From an uncultured Raoultella sp. (GTDB taxonomy: Bacteria; Pseudomonadota; Gammaproteobacteria; Enterobacterales; Enterobacteriaceae), in assembly GCA_900759445.1 (NCBI GenBank), contig CAAEVH010000002.1, positions 1-64,000 of the forward strand: a stretch of DNA of 64,000 nucleotides. The letters are read 5' to 3'. A model generated the notes under the pieces. That model was not told the origin of the DNA. It did no database searches and was given only the letters and a program-made list of their open reading frames with translations. The position numbers were made by a program, and so were the translations under genes. Within the stretch, counting starts at the first letter, position 1. Every line of letters starts with the position of its first letter. Shown piece by piece: positions 6,011 to 16,089 of the stretch.

Positions 6011-6425
6011 ACGCTACTCGCTCTGTTCCATATTGCTGAGTGATGCGCGTTTCTTCTCTCCGTCGCACGGAGCGTTATCCCTTTGAAAGACAGAGGTGGG
6101 GAGGGGCAAGGCCGACCGGCGCGCACGTCCAGCTGCGCGACTACCCGGTGAAATAGATGTGCTATGAATGTGGTCATCATCAGCAATCCTGGCCTTAAAT
6201 GAAACACGCATAAATATAGCTACTGTCTATGGGATACTAGCATTTACCGCGAGTATGTCCATACGATTAACATGGGTTATTGCTGTCGCAGCGCCAATCG
6301 CCGCAAACGGTTGGACAGGCGAGCGGGAAGCCCGGCTGCTGAATTTTTAATCTGGTTGACCAGGGCGAACTGTTGTATGATTTGCGGCCTTGAAAATAGA
6401 CTTATGTCGGCGAGTGCTTTATTTA
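6011..6425. promoter_or_regulatory. Divergent promoter region, yhiI / diguanylate cyclase
   Basis: About 415 bases between the divergent yhiI and cyclase genes. On the plus strand, TGGTTG (6353-6358), a 17-base spacer and TATGAT (6376-6381) form a plausible sigma-70 promoter about 45 bases before the cyclase ATG. The 6160-6260 section is AT-rich and probably carries the yhiI promoter, but I cannot fix its boxes. No gene was found. Confidence 0.45.
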
Positions 6426-7835
6426 ATGAGCGATGAAAGCAAGAAATATATCTCAGTTATTTTTAAGGAGTGGTTGCCGTTGTATGACGGCCTGAAGCCG
6501 GAAGTGAAGGCGATTCTTAAAAATATTGCCGCTGAGCAGTCTGAGGCGCTGGCCGTTCGTTTTTATGACTTCATTTTTCAGGATCCCGATATCGCCCGCC
6601 ACCTGACTTACGATCTGGTTCAGGAACGTCTTAGCCGTTCGCTGGCCGTGTGGGTCAACGACATTTTGACCAGCGAGAAAGATCAGCTGCAGGCGCTGGC
6701 AGAAAGGCAATACCATATTGGCAGTATTCATGCGCGCATCGGCATCCCCGCCGAGGCCGTACTGCGCGGCGCGCGCCAGCTCAAGGCCGGGCTGATTGAA
6801 TATGTGCGGGATAACGATAAGATTGATCACCAGACCGGTCTTGCGACCATCCACTACGCGGTAATGGCGATTAATATGGCGATCGAGATGATGTGCCATG
6901 CCTACACCTTATCGCACTATCGGGCGACGAAAAATGAAGAAGCCTTTCGTCTGTATAGCCTGATGGATAATGTGCCAATGGAATATGGCAAACAGCAGGT
7001 TTCGCTCTCCGGCTGGGAAAATAGCGCGATTTTTAATATTGTCAGTGAAAATAAGAGCGATATTAACGGGACGTTATTATCTGAATCTGAGTTTGGCCTG
7101 TGGTTCCGTCATAAATGCGTGCGCTATTGTAACAAGAACGCGCAGATGGAGGAGATCGCCGACTTGATTACGCAGGTAGACAATTTAATCGCCGGCTGGA
7201 AATCCTCAGACAGCAGCGCAGAATATAAAAATACGCAAACTTTGCTCCAGAGCATCCACATCCATTGCCAGAAAATCAGCAGCCAGCTCGGGGTTATCTT
7301 CAGCAGTCTGTCGCAGATGCAGAACGGCAAAGACACCCTGACCAGCCTGCTAAACCGCCGTTATCTGCCGGTCGTACTCAAGCATGAGGTCACGCTCGCT
7401 ATGGAACATGAACTGCCGATGACGGTGGCGATTGTGGATATTGACCATTTTAAAGAGATTAATGATAACTGGGGCCATATGGTGGGCGACCGGGCAATCA
7501 AGCACGTTGCCGACCTGCTCAGCAATAACATCCGCTCCAGCGATTATATCTTTCGCTACGGCGGCGAAGAGTTTCTGCTGGTGCTGGTGGAAACCGGCGC
7601 GGCCGAGGCTTTTGCGCTCCTTGAGCGCTTACGTAAAAGCATTAGCCAGCTCCCGTTTAACGTCGGCGGCGAGACCAATATCGCGATTACCACCAGTGCG
7701 GGCTTTGCCGTGCATACCGGCCATCCGGATTATAACCGGCTGCTGCGCAACGCTGACAGCGCGCTGTACGTGGCCAAGCGCAGCGGGCGCGACTGCGTGA
7801 AGATGCACCAGGGTGAGCAGGACCCGCAGCATTAA
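6426..7835 (+). CDS. Globin-coupled sensor diguanylate cyclase (DosC-like)
   Basis: A 469-residue protein. Residues 1-150 align with the sensor-globin domain of E. coli DosC/YddV: the proximal haem His is His102 (IHARIGIP) and the distal Tyr is Tyr47 (RFYDF). A middle linker domain spans about 160-295. The GGDEF domain carries GGEEF at 379-383 and a complete inhibitory site RSSD at 370-373, so an active, c-di-GMP-feedback-inhibited cyclase responding to O2 or another haem ligand is expected. An upstream TTG (6390) would add 12 residues; the ATG at 6426 fits the DosC alignment. Unlike E. coli dosC, no phosphodiesterase partner (dosP) is adjacent. Confidence 0.85.
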   Translation: MSDESKKYISVIFKEWLPLYDGLKPEVKAILKNIAAEQSEALAVRFYDFIFQDPDIARHLTYDLVQERLSRSLAVWVNDILTSEKDQLQALAERQYHIGSIHARIGIPAEAVLRGARQLKAGLIEYVRDNDKIDHQTGLATIHYAVMAINMAIEMMCHAYTLSHYRATKNEEAFRLYSLMDNVPMEYGKQQVSLSGWENSAIFNIVSENKSDINGTLLSESEFGLWFRHKCVRYCNKNAQMEEIADLITQVDNLIAGWKSSDSSAEYKNTQTLLQSIHIHCQKISSQLGVIFSSLSQMQNGKDTLTSLLNRRYLPVVLKHEVTLAMEHELPMTVAIVDIDHFKEINDNWGHMVGDRAIKHVADLLSNNIRSSDYIFRYGGEEFLLVLVETGAAEAFALLERLRKSISQLPFNVGGETNIAITTSAGFAVHTGHPDYNRLLRNADSALYVAKRSGRDCVKMHQGEQDPQH

Positions 7836-8861: not shown

Positions 8862-8912
8862 CAGAGACTCCTTACGATGCTATTAAGCCGAAAGACGTCG
8901 CTGAGAAACGAT

Positions 8913-8934
8913 AAAGCCGCCTTCCGGCGGCTTT
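8913..8934 (-). terminator. Attenuator terminator in trpS2 leader
   Basis: The perfect hairpin AAAGCCGCC-GGAA-GGCGGCTTT is followed on the minus strand by ATCGTTT. It lies between the leader peptide and trpS2, about 50 bases before the synthetase start. Its 5' arm (8926-8934) can instead pair with GGCGGC at 8956-8961, which would prevent termination. Confidence 0.75.
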
Positions 8935-8953
8935 AAAAATGGAAAAGTGAATC

Positions 8954-8979
8954 GTGCCGCCTGTTATGCAGGCAGCCAC
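8954..8979 (-). promoter_or_regulatory. Leader hairpin 1:2 / antiterminator segment
   Basis: On the minus strand CTGCCTG and CAGGCGGC pair (one G-T, continuing past a bulged base with two further pairs) around a loop containing the leader stop codon. The 5' arm includes the end of the second Trp codon, so a ribosome stalled at the Trp codons would break it and free GGCGGC to pair with GCCGCC of the terminator. This is the segment 1-2-3-4 logic of the trp and phe attenuators. Confidence 0.65.
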
Positions 8980-9017
8980 CAACGATATGGGCGGGCAATG
9001 ACGACGATTCTGTTCAT
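8964..9017 (-). CDS. TrpS2 leader peptide with tandem Trp codons
   Basis: A 17-residue reading frame, MNRIVVIARPYRWWLPA, ending in TAA. It starts at an ATG preceded by AGGATAG and has TGG TGG as codons 13-14. It is too short for ordinary gene finders. Two adjacent Trp codons in so short a peptide, placed directly upstream of switching hairpins and a Trp-tRNA synthetase gene, strongly suggest an attenuation leader that senses charged tRNA-Trp. Transcription probably starts upstream around 9030-9050 (TTGCCG, 17 bases, TTCACT on the minus strand; weak). Confidence 0.75.
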   Translation of the reverse strand: MNRIVVIARPYRWWLPA

Positions 9018-9136
9018 CAGACTATCCTGCCACGAAACGCGGCGGCAGTGAAAGCGGTTTTTTTTATTGCGGCAATAACGGTTTACAGAGTGCGGTTTTG
9101 CGCCCTCATGGAACTCAATGAAGGCGCAGGCGGGAC

Positions 9137-9466
9137 TTACATGCTGGAGAAGACGTTCATGATGATGCCGCCGGAAATAATCAGCACCATGGCGAGGATC
9201 GCCGGCAGATCCGGTTTTTGTTTGTAGAGGATCATCGAGCAGATGGTGACGCCGACGATACCAAAGCCGCACCATAGCGAGTAGGCGACGCCCACTGGAA
9301 TCGTGCTCATCGCGCGAGTGAGGGCGAAGTAGCACAGGCCGTAGGCGCAGACCACCAGTACCGATGGCGCCAGTTTGCTAAAGCCGTTGGTCTTTTTGAT
9401 CATCGAGGTACCGGTGATTTCGGAGCCGATAGACAGCGCCAACCATAAAAATCCGAGATTAAACAT
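9137..9466 (-). CDS. SMR-family transporter, subunit 2
   Basis: A 109-residue four-helix small multidrug resistance protein. It keeps the TM1 glutamate (GSEITGTS) and the TM3 motif YSLWCGFG (compare EmrE Y60, W63). It follows its partner SMR gene by 17 bases, so the two probably form a heterodimer like MdtJI. Being last in the choline microcompartment operon, it may move choline, trimethylamine or another quaternary amine (inference). A G-U-containing hairpin lies just past the stop (9100-9127), without a clear U-run. Confidence 0.82.
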   Translation of the reverse strand: MFNLGFLWLALSIGSEITGTSMIKKTNGFSKLAPSVLVVCAYGLCYFALTRAMSTIPVGVAYSLWCGFGIVGVTICSMILYKQKPDLPAILAMVLIISGGIIMNVFSSM

Positions 9467-9483
9467 ATGCGATTCCTTTTGCG

Positions 9484-9903
9484 TTAGTTGGCGACTTTTT
9501 TGTCCAGAGATGAGGGTGAAGCAACCGGTTTAGCTGGCGTATCTTCGCTCTCTTCGCTACCCATTTTGGAAAACAGATTCATGATAACGATGCCGCTGGC
9601 GATAACGGCCATGCCGATAATCGCCGCGGTGTCCGGATGCTGACCGTAAAATGCCATTCCCAGCGTCGACACCACCAGAATTCCGGTACCGGACCAGGTG
9701 GCGTATGCCAGACCAACGGGAATATCTTTCACCGCGCGGGAAAGGGAGTAGTAGCAGGTGCAGTACAGCAGCACCAGCAGCCCGAGCAGCAGCATTTTGG
9801 TGCTCCCTTCGCTGCTACCGAACATTTTCAGGGTGGAAGTGGCCGAGGTTTCCGAAAGGATAACCAACAGCATCCATAGCCAACATTTTGTTTTTGAAGA
9901 CAT
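9484..9903 (-). CDS. SMR-family transporter, subunit 1
   Basis: A 139-residue SMR protein. The four helices fill residues 6-107, with the TM1 glutamate in ILSETSAT and TM3 motif YATWSGTG. A 30-residue hydrophilic tail rich in Ser, Glu and Pro follows (GSEESEDTPAKPVASPSS), which is unusual for SMR proteins of about 105-110 residues. It is encoded 14 bases after the uncharacterised cargo-like gene and just before the second SMR gene. Co-location with cutC suggests transport of quaternary ammonium substrate or amine product; this is inference. Confidence 0.82.
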   Translation of the reverse strand: MSSKTKCWLWMLLVILSETSATSTLKMFGSSEGSTKMLLLGLLVLLYCTCYYSLSRAVKDIPVGLAYATWSGTGILVVSTLGMAFYGQHPDTAAIIGMAVIASGIVIMNLFSKMGSEESEDTPAKPVASPSSLDKKVAN

Positions 9904-11692: not shown

Positions 11693-12640
11693 TTAATGGC
11701 GGACTAACCGAATATCAAAATCAAACTGCGTGAAGAACGTCTCCAGCTGGTTCAGCTCTTCGGACGAATAAGACGGGTCCTGGGTAATGGGGTAGGGCAT
11801 ATCCAGGCGCTCGTATTTTTTGCGGCCCAGCTGGTGGTACGGCAGCATGTCGATACGGCGGATATTTCCGCGCTTCGCCAGTTTCTGCACATAATCAATA
11901 GCCCCGGTAATGGCATCGAATGAGTCGTTATATCCGCGAACCAACGGCATGCGAATAATCACGTTAGCGCCGGAGTCCACCAGCCATTCCAGATTGCGGC
12001 GAATACCTTCATTGCCGATGCCAAATAACGCTTTATGGTGTTCGCTGTTGATTTGCTTAATATCGAATAAGAAGGTGTCGGTTACCGGCGCCAGCTTTTG
12101 ATAATTGGCCAGCGGGGTCGTACCCTGGGTTTCGATGGCGGTATTGAGCATCATCTTTTTGCATTCGCTGAACAGCGCCACGGCAAAATCGGTTTGCAGG
12201 CTCATTTCGCCGCCGCCGATGGTCACGCCGCCGCCGGAAGCGATGTAGAAGTCATAATCTTGCATGATGATATCCATCAGCTCGCTGACGGTGACGTCTT
12301 TACCCATAATATCCAGCGCATTCTGGGTGCAAATCTCTTCGCATTTGCGGCAGCCAATACAGTCTTTATTACGGTCGACAAAATGCTTCATCTCGCCGTT
12401 TTCTTCTGCCCGGTAGTGAATGCCGGCCGGGCAGACATTGACGCAGTCGCCGCAGTTAATGCATTTGTCGTGCGAGAACATGACCTGGAACTGGCTATTC
12501 AGCCCCTCCGGGTTAGCGCACCATGGGCAGCGTATATTGCAGCCTTTGAAAAAAACCAGTGTGCGAATTCCATCGCCGTCGTAGATCGAATATTTCTGAA
12601 TATTGAATATTCGCCCGGTTAATTCTTGTTTTGCGCTCAC
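11693..12640 (-). CDS. cutD: Choline TMA-lyase activating enzyme CutD
   Basis: A 315-residue radical SAM glycyl-radical activase. It has the SAM cluster motif CNIRCPWC near residue 35 and a ferredoxin-like insert with two [4Fe-4S] sites (CINCGDCVNVCPAG and CIGCRKCEEIC). It installs the glycyl radical on CutC. GGAGGTAGCT directly precedes a GTG at 12640, which gives the family start (SAKQELTGRIF); an in-frame ATG 13 codons upstream lacks such a site. It is encoded 56 bases after cutC. Confidence 0.93.
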   Translation of the reverse strand: MSAKQELTGRIFNIQKYSIYDGDGIRTLVFFKGCNIRCPWCANPEGLNSQFQVMFSHDKCINCGDCVNVCPAGIHYRAEENGEMKHFVDRNKDCIGCRKCEEICTQNALDIMGKDVTVSELMDIIMQDYDFYIASGGGVTIGGGEMSLQTDFAVALFSECKKMMLNTAIETQGTTPLANYQKLAPVTDTFLFDIKQINSEHHKALFGIGNEGIRRNLEWLVDSGANVIIRMPLVRGYNDSFDAITGAIDYVQKLAKRGNIRRIDMLPYHQLGRKKYERLDMPYPITQDPSYSSEELNQLETFFTQFDFDIRLVRH

Positions 12641-12663
12641 AGCTACCTCCAGTAAAACGATCG

Positions 12664-12693
12664 GGACATCCGTGTCCAAAAACGTCCGTGTCC
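12664..12693 (-). repeat. Short repeat and hairpin between cutC and cutD
   Basis: TCCGTGTCC occurs twice (12669-12677 and 12685-12693), and GGACA-TCCG-TGTCC (12664-12677) can fold into a five-pair hairpin. It lies between the cutC stop and the cutD ribosome site and may set the relative yield of lyase and activase by mRNA folding. This is inference. Confidence 0.4.
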
Positions 12694-12696
12694 TTA

Positions 12697-15600
12697 TCAG
12701 AACTTCTCAATCACCGTACGGCTGATAATTTCGTCCTGTACCTCTTTGCACAGCTCAACGAAGTAGGCGCTGTAGCCGGCGACGCGGACGATCAGGTCGC
12801 GATATTTTTCGGGTTCCTGCTGGGCTTTTTTCAGCACTTCGTTATCGACATAGCTGAACTGCATCTGGCCGTTGCCGAGAATCGACGCCGTGCGCAGCAG
12901 GGTAATCAGGCCGTGACGACCTTCCGGGGTATCCAGCAGCCCCTGGAGGAACTTGAAGTTATGCACCATGCCGATGTTCATGGTCTCCACGTTCATCTTG
13001 CTGACTGACTTGATGATGGCGGTTGGACCCTGCTTATCCGCCCCCTGCGTCGGACTGATGCCGTCGGAAAGCGGCATCCATGCCAGGCGGCCGTTCGGCG
13101 TGGCGTTGGTCAGCTCGCCAATCGGCGTGTTGTTGGAGATAGAGAGGGTGCCGTGGCTCAGCGTGGAGTAGAGCATTTTGTACTTGCGGCACTCGCGCTC
13201 GGTCCACTCGGTAATATCCAGTGCGTACTGGTCAACGTAGTTATCGTCGTTACCGTATTTCGGCGCGTTCAGGCAGTCGCGGCGCAGGGCTTCAAAGCCT
13301 TCGAAGTTCGCCAGCATCGCATCGCGCATCTGTTCGAGGGTGTATTTCTTATCTTCGAATACCAGCTTACGAATCGCCGCCATCGAATCGACGTAGGTCG
13401 CCAGACCGGAGAAGATCAGCCCCGGGCCGTGGTTGATCATCGCGCCGCCGGCGGCGACGTCTTTGCCGCTCTCCATGCAGCCTTCCACCAGCAGCGACAT
13501 CAGCGGTTTCGGCGCCACGTCGCGGTGCACGCGCTGGCTGATCACTGTGCCAATGGCCGACAGACGGACGATATGGGCAATCTGCTGTTTCACCGCCGCG
13601 TCAAAGGCTTCGAAGCTGCGCAGTTCGCGCAGGTCGCCGGTATCCAGCCCCTGATAGCTATCAAACAGCACCATCCGGCCGCGGTTTAAGACGAACTCGA
13701 TAGCGATAGGCCATTGGGTGTAACCGGTAGAGGTCCACTGATAGATACGGCCGGATTTCTGCGGTTCGACGCAGCCCATCAGGCAGTAGTCGCGCGCGTC
13801 TTCGAAATCGAAGCCTTTACGCAGCATCATTTTGATATGGGAGTCATCGAAGTGGCAGGCCGGGAAACCCATCCCCGCCTTGACGACGTCGACGATTTTT
13901 TCCATATATTTCTGCGGTGACTGGTTGTGGATACGGCAGGCCAGCGACGGCTGGTAAACCTTCACAAAGCGCACGGCGTCCATAATCAGGTAAGTCAGGT
14001 CGTTACAGGCATCGCCGCCGGAGCGCTTCTGTCCGCCAACGGTCAGGTTGATAAACGGCTGATAACCGGCGAAGTATTTCGCCCCCAGCTCGCTCGACAT
14101 CCACATCAGCTCGGCGCATTTGATGATAAACGCCTGCAGCAGCTCCAGCGCAGCTTCGTGAGTCAGGCGGCCTTCGCGGATATCGGCTTCAAACATCGGG
14201 TAGCAGTACTGGTCTACGCGGCCCAGCGACAGCCCGGTCTGGTTCTCTTCAATTTCAAACAGCGACTCCACGGTCCAGATACTTTGCAGCGCTTCCTGCA
14301 GGGTCTTCGGCGGGTTCGCCGGGACGTTCTGGTTCACTTCGGCAATGGTCAACAGCTCGGCGCGGCGCTGGGCGTTTTGCTCAATAGCGGCCAGCTCACG
14401 GGCGCGCGCGGCGATGCGGTGAGCGTAGTTGATCACCCCTTCGCAGGTTTCAATCGCCGCCTTGTAGTAGTAGATGCGGTCGATATCTTCCGGGTTTTCC
14501 ATGCTCAGGCTGGCAAGATGCGCCTCAGCGTCGGCTTTAATGCCGTTCATCCCTTTGGTGAACAGCAGCACGTCATAGCCCGGGCAGGTATCGCCGCCGC
14601 CGTTGATCTGATGGTAGGAGAGGTCGCTGACGAAGGTTTCGCCGCTGAACGCCCACACGCCCGCTTCGCGGTACTGGGCTTCACAGATCTCATCCAGCGA
14701 GCGACCTTCCCAGAACGGTACGATCTCTTCGCGGATGGTTTTCTTATCTGCTTCGCTGATCTCAAACGGATCCTGCGGACGGGTGCTCATGGTATCGAGC
14801 TCGTCGCGCACCCAGCGCCAGGCGATATCCGGCGAGAAGGCCCCCGCGCGCGGCTTGCCGCACGGATGGCCGACGATCAGCTCATCGTCCTGAATCAGAA
14901 TCGGCGCGGTTTCGCAGGCGTGACGGAAAGCTTTGGCGCGCAGCAGAATGGTCGGCATACCCGGATTCGCTTTCACCACCTCGGTAAAGGCCAGCGCGCG
15001 GTAGATAGAGACGCTCGGGCGCACCGTCAGGTAGTGGTTACGCAGGCGCTGCATGCGCGGGGTCAGCCCTTCTGCTGTTGTGGTTTCGCTACAGGCGGCA
15101 AATGGCGCGGCGGAGACCTTTTGTGCGCCGTGGAACAGACGTACCGGCAGATTGAGCGCGCTCAGATTGCGTTGTGCGCAGAGGAACAGCGCGGACAGTT
15201 CGTTGATGATCGTGCTGGGGTCATCGAGGCTGGCGCCGTGGCGCAGGGCGTCGAACATCGGGTAGCCGTCGATGGCGCAGGCGGCGCGGACTTCGCTCAG
15301 CTGTGCCAGCTTGAACCACAGGCACTCAACGATTTCATAGGCCCGTTGCGGCGTCAGGGTGCCGTTGGCGATGTCGCGCTGATACCACGGCAGCAGCGCT
15401 TTATCGGCACCTTCCGGGTTCACCGCATAGCTGCCGTTGTCCAGCTGCAGCGCCAGCTGAAACAGATAAAATGCCTGGCAGGCCTCTTTGAAGTTACGTG
15501 CCGGGTGGGCCGGAACGTGATGCAGAATCGCCGCGCTCTCCAGCAGTTCGGCCTGGCGGTACGGGTTGCTTTCCGCCGCCGCGAGCGTTTCGGCGCTGGT

Positions 15601-16089
15601 GGCCAGATTCTGCGCCAGGGCGAGGAGGGCGTCGCAGGCGTAAATGGCGGCGCGGCAGCCGTTGACTTCATCCATACCGCTGCGGCTGACGGCGCTACCC
15701 AGGCTGCGGGTTTTCTCTTCCAGCTGGTGTTTAATCGCCAGCACGCCTTTTTCAATAATCAGCCGGTAATCCGGGGAGTCCAGGTCGCTGCTGAGATTCA
15801 GGAAACGGAATGCCGACGGACGCTGCGCGGCGCTTTCATCGTGAAAAATTGCCCCGTGCGGTTTGCGGGTCTGGTCGCCGACAATGAGCTCATCGGGGCT
15901 GATGCACAGCGGCAGCTGGCGCATCAACTCATAGAAACGACGCGCCGGCTTGACGGCGGCAGGAATGCCCGCGATATCGCCATCAAGGGCGTTCAACGTG
16001 GCGGCATGTTCGGTGCACAGGGTGCTTTTTTGTGAGAGTAAACGTTCAGCCAGCACGTGGACGCGCGGCGTTAAGCTGTAGTGTGCCAT
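12697..16089 (-). CDS. cutC: Choline trimethylamine-lyase CutC (long, type II)
   Basis: A 1130-residue glycyl-radical enzyme that cleaves choline to trimethylamine and acetaldehyde inside the microcompartment. The thiyl-radical Cys773 and Glu775 lie in MGCVEP, and the radical Gly1105 in RVAGYSA near the C-terminus. Spacing matches the K. pneumoniae enzyme, as I recall it, shifted by two residues. The first 330 residues are an extension absent from short type I CutC and resemble a diverged copy of residues about 380-720 (DELIVG occurs at 66-71 and again at 402-407). It is fourth-last of the enzymes in the operon, directly before cutD. Confidence 0.96.

Follow-up and report, generated by a model that had tools for sequence, protein, structure and literature searches.

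The trpS2 locus

The window, the whole 64,000-nt stretch of DNA from an uncultured Raoultella sp. that was analyzed, carries on its minus strand a tryptophan--tRNA ligase gene (trpS2) preceded by a short ORF with two adjacent Trp codons (WW) and by segments that can form alternative hairpins (Table 1). The trpS2 product (TrpRS2) matches TIGR00233 with 229.6 bits (cut-off, 176.75), and its nearest solved relatives are PDB entries 1yi8 and 2a4m (E 2e-114; 2a4m is titled TrpRS II), both presumably from Deinococcus radiodurans. A Raoultella ornithinolytica record has a trpS2 match at 99%. The nearest genome (G001), the one genome in which a second TrpRS was sought, contains a trpS2 copy that is 100% identical and another TrpRS that is 29% identical.

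Table 1. Features of the trpS2 locus in the window
Feature	Position	Strand	Description and basis
Leader ORF MNRIVVIARPYRWWLPA, predicted leaderless	9017-8964	-	17 codons; ATG 9017-9015, stop TAA 8966-8964
TGG TGG (Trp codons) of leader ORF	8981-8976	-	Sequence
Predicted leader promoter	9052-9024	-	TTCACT 9052-9047 (-35-like), TG 9032-9031, CAGGAT 9029-9024 (-10-like); sequence and family logo
Segment 1, 5' arm of hairpin 1:2	8976-8969	-	Fold and covariation
Segment 2	8963-8956	-	Partners: segment 1, or segment 3 (GCCGCC) via GGCGGC 8961-8956; fold and covariation
Segment 3, 5' arm of terminator-like hairpin	8935-8926	-	Fold
Segment 4, 3' arm of terminator-like hairpin	8921-8912	-	Fold
T-containing tail TCGTTTCTCA after segment 4	8911-8902	-	Sequence
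Segment 5 CGUCUUUCGGC	8897-8887	-	Complementary to 8928-8918; also contributes to the 5' arm of the SD hairpin
SD-hiding hairpin 5:6	8903-8862	-	trpS2 SD AGGAG 8872-8868 is segment 6; fold
trpS2, tryptophan--tRNA ligase	8861-7854	-	335 aa; TIGR00233 match

Upstream of trpS2 lie two adjoining SMR-type efflux genes (9137-9903, minus strand), which reach the curated cut-off of none of the listed NCBIfam families and perhaps encode a two-part transporter. A GGDEF gene (6390-7835, plus strand) converges on trpS2, and on E. coli plasmid pB379_2 a diguanylate cyclase gene (L224 7161-8558) adjoins trpS. Since the two are neighbors on that plasmid also, the GGDEF gene and trpS2 may have moved as a pair. 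Farther upstream, a 1130-aa ORF and a 328-aa ORF (11693-16089, minus strand) resemble what we take to be a glycyl-radical enzyme and its activase.

In the leader, hairpin 1:2 has 8 pairs, one of them G-U. Segment 2 can alternatively pair through its GGCGGC with GCCGCC at 8931-8926 (pairing 2:3), and the terminator-like stem (8935-8912, hairpin 3:4) has 10 pairs. The mutually exclusive hairpins 1:2, 2:3 and 3:4 are set against the Trp codons. The 179-nt leader folds more stably than its shuffles (z -3.09), with 1 of 200 shuffles equally stable. Sequence and fold agree with the initial annotation, which had placed a leader peptide, hairpin 1:2, an antiterminator (2:3) and a terminator (3:4) at these sites; the perfect nine-pair terminator that it described has those nine pairs and a tenth. 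The predicted leaderless start, the SD-hiding hairpin and segment 5 were missed in that reading.

Distribution of trpS2 and conservation of the leader ORF

Draws of genomes at several taxonomic ranks, partly overlapping in content, were searched for trpS2. With a threshold of E 1e-80, the family draw gave 63 positives among 392 genomes (22 of 154 genera had the gene), the order draw 65 among 394 (20 of 114 genera), and the phylum draw 25 among 398 (18 of 212 genera). A more distant query found it in 4 of 369 genomes of the class. A nucleotide search of E. coli returned trpS2 in 2 of 5426 genomes, both times plasmid-borne. A WW leader precedes trpS2 on all three of the plasmids read from these species, two from E. 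coli (L224, L225) and one from K. pneumoniae (L226). On Klebsiella plasmids (H13-H20, e.g., NZ_CP096267.1 25673-26389) the match covers residues 97-335 only, with 90.4% identity; these are probably cut-off copies.

For comparison of leaders, 223 trpS2 sequences including that of the window were gathered, with trpS1 (L002) excluded, and removal of identical start regions left 189 loci. A WW leader ORF with an ATG start stands at about the same place upstream of trpS2 in 171 of the 189 distinct loci, which belong to gamma- and betaproteobacteria, and all 171 offer a start that gives 30 codons or fewer. The chance background is 0.0145 per 270 nt (77 WW ORFs no longer than 30 codons over 1429 kb of strand). 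The conserved WW frame, together with the second TrpRS of G001, supports the proposal of a Trp-codon attenuator on a second TrpRS gene.

By the same rule 18 loci are without a WW leader. Three of these (L037, L152 and L208) have, by eye, a single-Trp leader at the same place; no leader was found by rule in L131, L143, L153, L155, L161, L164, L166, L212-L216 and L221-L223. In L153 and L155, trpS2 is downstream of another gene, which by its motif is presumably ksgA-like.

Eleven further records from a plasmid collection were read, namely L227 (Salmonella) and ten chosen among 50 listed matches. Seven contain a WW leader: L227, L232 (Methylocystis), L233 (Burkholderia), L234 (Variovorax), L235 (Deinococcus), L236 (Proteus; starts with GTG) and L237 (Nonomuraea). 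Single records thus extend the WW leader to an alphaproteobacterium, Deinococcus and Nonomuraea. It is absent from the other four (Staphylococcus L228 and L229, Acinetobacter L230 and Rhizobium L231). The Staphylococcus plasmid enzymes (L228 4989-5996, L229 1632-2639) are ~54% identical to TrpRS2, have an IS6 transposase or MFS transporter gene close by, and show neither a WW leader nor a T-box match at gathering score; Staphylococcus accounts for 26 of the 148 plasmid-collection matches to TrpRS2.

Covariation of the hairpins and the terminator

Of the 171 leaders, 169 are of alignable length (L021 and L144 were dropped), and 64 remain below 0.88 similarity. Cells of this alignment in which both sides of a pair have changed were counted against 500 row shuffles, in which shared ancestry remains, and against six slid registers. 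Hairpin 1:2 has 45 such cells (shuffles mean 14.4, maximum 26; slid maximum 14), 3:4 has 19 (mean 3.5, maximum 9; slid maximum 7) and 3:5 has 61 (mean 20.4, maximum 34; slid maximum 37). Pairing 2:3 has 13 (mean 4.4, maximum 10; slid maximum 14). By these counts 1:2, 3:4 and 3:5 exceed both controls and 2:3 exceeds the row shuffles only, so that covariation is weakest for 2:3. The check that the initial annotation had proposed, conservation of the WW codons and stems among trpS2 leaders, thus comes out in its favor for the codons and for 1:2 and 3:4, and for 2:3 against row shuffles only.

The window has a good terminator-like hairpin. In the family, a stem followed by a T-rich tail was found by a simple rule in 97 of 171 leaders. 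Grouped by protein identity, these are 54 of 81 leaders at 71% or more, 41 of the 82 at 61.5-71% and 2 of the 8 with lower identity. By eye, several marine leaders (L125, L128, L133, L140 and L147-L151) have no T tract after 3:4.

An Rfam search over the window gave no family at gathering score, T-box and Trp/Phe leader families included. At E up to 10 there were weak sub-gathering matches, among them Phe_leader at 18.8 bits (gathering, 55) on the wrong strand.

The hidden SD of trpS2 and segment 5

The trpS2 SD is sequestered in a hairpin, with a median P(open) of 0.18 in the 64 leaders. Opening it costs a median of 8.4 kcal/mol versus 4.4 kcal/mol with the upstream part shuffled, and in 41 of 64 leaders the cost exceeds that of 57 or more of 60 shuffles; none of 60 reaches the cost in the window (9.7 kcal/mol). 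The strength of this hairpin is conserved rather than its register, since in a single fixed register no more than 266 of 452 cells are paired.

Segment 5 can pair with the top of hairpin 3:4, where its complement runs from the end of arm 3 through the loop into the start of arm 4. In the window it forms 11 such pairs, two of them G-U, at -21.1 versus -13.2 kcal/mol, and none of 100 shuffles is as good. Across the family the complementarity to the hairpin top is within the best 5 of 100 shuffles in 59 of 64 leaders and at rank 0 in 32. In the distant loci L156, L157, L159, L162 and L191 the segment 5 match tracks an altered hairpin top, and in L133, L140 and L141 its partner is mainly arm 4. 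This suggests that the SD hairpin and the competing segment 5 form a second, translational lock.

Simple thermodynamic opening of the SD upon stalling was unsupported: equilibrium folding of the stalled RNA gave an SD gain of more than 0.3 in 2 of 64 leaders, and in 1 of 64 with 3:4 blocked. Forced states were then compared. When 2:3 is forced in place of 3:4, opening the SD becomes cheaper by a median of 2.0 kcal/mol, and by more than 1 in 37 of 63 leaders (L163 was skipped), with a shift of more than 1 kcal/mol in the opposite direction in 2 of 63; the largest gains are in L133, L032, L125 and L141. In a permuted control, in which downstream halves were swapped among leaders in 12 rounds, medians ranged from 0.0 to 0.37 and 232 of 756 cases exceeded 1. 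A relay from 2:3 pairing to SD release is a kinetic hypothesis that may be correct, with the balance tipped somewhat against it.

The closest competitor to a two-layer control is an attenuator that acts on transcription only, of the kind found in E. coli trp and pheST, in which 5:6 would constantly limit trpS2 translation and segment 5 would be no switch. This explanation falls just short of an even chance. The SD stays hidden in all states at equilibrium, the coupling of forced 2:3 to SD opening in the window is small (0.6 kcal/mol), and the window's terminator-like hairpin is good, all of which favors transcriptional control. However, where the hairpin top changes, segment 5 changes with it, the coupling in the family exceeds the permuted control, and several marine leaders show, by eye, no T tract.

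The predicted promoter and leaderless start

With the leader start taken as the 5'-most in-frame ATG giving 30 codons or fewer, a hexamer of the form [TC]A...T has its last letter precisely at -7 of the leader ATG in 119 of 171 leaders, 90 of which also have TG at the extended position; the next best offset is -9, in 27 leaders. A logo of 94 upstream regions less than 80% alike shows TT at -35/-34, TG at -15/-14, TA at -12/-11 and T at -7, a pattern read as that of a sigma-70 promoter with +1 on the A of the leader ATG. Because the -10-like hexamer ends at this fixed distance from the ATG, the trpS2 leader mRNA is predicted, with good probability, to be leaderless. No hexamer ends at -6 to -8 of any in-frame start in 31 of 171 leaders. 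These comprise 26 of the Aeromonas sequence type, in which the box mostly ends at -9, and L127, L158, L159, L160 and L191. In the plasmid-collection WW leaders a -10-like hexamer ends, by eye, at -7 or -8 in 6 of 7, the exception being L236. For comparison, in none of the E. coli K-12 leaders thrL, trpL, pheM, hisL, leuL and ilvL does a hexamer that matches 4 of the 6 -10 letters end anywhere from -19 to -1.

A conventional leader, with a 5' UTR, an SD (AGGA, 8 nt before the ATG) and a promoter farther upstream, is unlikely. The window seen alone would be compatible with it, as its AGGA, with an anti-SD pairing energy of -5.5 kcal/mol, could pass as an SD, and a generic promoter scan found none in the leader region, where the promoter letters are weak. 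In the family, however, anti-SD pairing before the leader is close to background (median -3.0 versus -2.8 kcal/mol; at or below -4 kcal/mol in 63 of 171 leaders versus 134 of 513 background sites), and the promoter letters keep a fixed register to the ATG. The SD of trpS2 itself is strong, at or below -4 kcal/mol in 168 of 171 loci. The AGGA of the window is within the CAGGAT box at the -10 position, so the ribosome site that had been assigned to the leader exists as letters and is better read as a -10 box, an SD before the leader being no feature of the family. The promoter call in the window rests on the family comparison.

The Salmonella small RNA isrQ (Rfam RF01399) was considered as the terminated leader and rejected as annotated because its Rfam model matches the opposite strand, overlapping the leader start by ~4 nt. 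It is arranged head to head with the trpS2 leader and covers the predicted trpS2 promoter. Matches were found in 5 of 6 Salmonella-like loci (L012 1183-1343, L013 2663-2824, L018 1182-1343, L074 3683-3843 and L227 1-129) and not in L014. A table of PMC2515195 gives 0 and 0 reads for isrQ, which it places between STM4508 and STM4509.

Proposed mechanism

These comparisons make ribosome-mediated attenuation of trpS2 at Trp codons very probable, and its combination with a leaderless leader is likely as well. In the proposed mechanism, the attenuator would keep the backup TrpRS silent for as long as charged tRNA-Trp is plentiful. Transcription would start at the leader AUG or within ~2 nt of it and, for this reason, the ribosome would initiate on a naked 5' end. 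With ample Trp-tRNA the ribosome would reach the stop codon, 1:2 and 3:4 would form, and RNA polymerase would tend to terminate; in RNA that was read through, hairpin 5:6 would cover the trpS2 SD. When tRNA-Trp is uncharged, through Trp starvation or inhibition of the main TrpRS, the ribosome would stall on WW and mask segment 1. Segments 2 and 3 would then pair and the terminator would be absent, and the freed top of hairpin 3:4 could capture segment 5, making the SD easier to open.

The broadest form of this proposal is a widespread, partly plasmid-borne module of leader and TrpRS2 that is leaderless and acts on both the terminator and the hidden SD, while lineages such as L147-L151 would use translational control alone. 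It is put forward tentatively, as somewhat less than an even prospect, because a slid register equals 2:3 in both-side changes (14 versus 13).

E. coli thrS is autoregulated by its synthetase, and the SD hairpin of trpS2 could likewise be an operator bound by TrpRS2, independent of the leader peptide. The strongly hidden SD across the family would suit such an operator, but segment 5 varies with hairpin 3:4 and not with tRNA-Trp (tRNA likeness was judged by eye) and the hairpin register is not conserved, which leaves it quite improbable. A chance ORF before a plain terminator, with no regulation, would agree with the lack of an Rfam match at gathering score in the window but is already contradicted by conservation (171 of 189 loci versus 0.0145 per 270 nt) and by covariation, and is barely credible.

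Relation to known attenuators

Vecchione and Sello reportedly described in 2010, to judge by the title, an auxiliary antibiotic-resistant TrpRS gene that is attenuated in Streptomyces. In erm-type translational attenuators a chain of competing hairpins ends at a hidden SD and the signal is a drug-stalled ribosome; the trpS2 leader is alike in its competing hairpins that end at a hidden SD, whereas its signal would be a Trp codon and SD release is proposed. The pheST genes of E. coli (leader pheM) share leader-peptide attenuation of a synthetase gene but encode a housekeeping enzyme and use Phe codons, and pheM lacks a -10-like hexamer close to its ATG. E. coli trpL has WW codons and the same 1-2-3-4 logic but precedes a biosynthetic operon and is likewise without a -10-like hexamer near the ATG. 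Sinorhizobium meliloti trpL is leaderless, its RNA beginning at the ATG of the Trp leader ORF, but it belongs to an alphaproteobacterial trpE(G) gene and to no synthetase (PMC7298713).

PMC1262725 presents candidate attenuators of S. avermitilis trpS2 and of gammaproteobacterial pheST. Since these are in print, the attenuator that the initial annotation placed on a synthetase gene is correctly located but is not new in kind. The Streptomyces leader is alike in that, upstream of an auxiliary TrpRS gene, it combines a Trp-codon leader peptide with hairpins that compete (PMC1262725), and the actinomycete Nonomuraea (L237) also has a WW leader; the trpS2 considered here differs in belonging to a proteobacterial enzyme clade and in having an SD hairpin with segment 5. 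With attenuation of Streptomyces TrpRS and gammaproteobacterial pheST known, the proteobacterial trpS2 leader is a variation on synthetase attenuators rather than a new type. Among the open-licence PMC papers listed by literature searches, none was recognized as a report of the proteobacterial trpS2 leader. TrpRS II (1yi8/2a4m) represents the closest solved enzyme relatives, and the Deinococcus plasmid copy (L235) also has a WW leader; TrpRS II differs in that a role with NO synthase is described for it in PMC9437257.

Possible backup function and drug insensitivity

In Salmonella Typhimurium Tn-seq, trpS, an essential gene in E. coli, fell just short of the selection threshold, and the authors consider that it may tolerate insertions because of trpS2, which is 28% identical (PMC3487940). 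In biofilm, trpS2 is up 2-fold and shares a table with trp genes (PMC2805695), and in a tolC mutant trpS2, mtr and trpABCDE are down together (PMC12506092). These data fit a Trp-responsive backup. The gene also appears in a table of PMC11000858. The earlier proposal of a back-up device is thus in agreement with the reading given by the Salmonella authors.

In the TrpRS of B. stearothermophilus, His43 has been linked to indolmycin sensitivity, and a change of His to Asn gives resistance (PMC4899734). At the matching position trpS1 has His, and Gln is found in 188 of 189 TrpRS2 proteins including that of the window, with His in L222; the replacement thus differs from the published resistant change. 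In Pseudoalteromonas luteoviolacea HI1, the trpS2 locus (L143), placed within the gammaproteobacterial clade in a 59-row tree, has an aminotransferase, a methyltransferase and a LuxR-type gene as neighbors. The indolmycin cluster of other P. luteoviolacea strains includes such a ligase (PMC5069768), and we infer that HI1 carries an indolmycin cluster. The absence of a WW leader from L143 would fit co-expression with that cluster. Drug insensitivity of TrpRS2, and with it inducible resistance, may be proposed from this active-site residue and from the location of the P. luteoviolacea relative.

If the proposal is correct, trpS2 would represent both an amino-acid attenuator of enteric bacteria that is leaderless and a synthetase attenuator with two layers, in a module that spans gamma-, beta- and alphaproteobacteria and whose leader has counterparts upstream of related genes in Deinococcus and an actinomycete. 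It would be a natural test case for leaderless initiation in an attenuator, where the ribosome has to bind the very 5' terminus early enough to control RNA polymerase, and for control of both termination and SD access by one leader. With the module, many Enterobacterales, Aeromonas and marine relatives would possess a bypass that induces itself when Trp-tRNA is short, a bypass that bears on TrpRS as a drug target.
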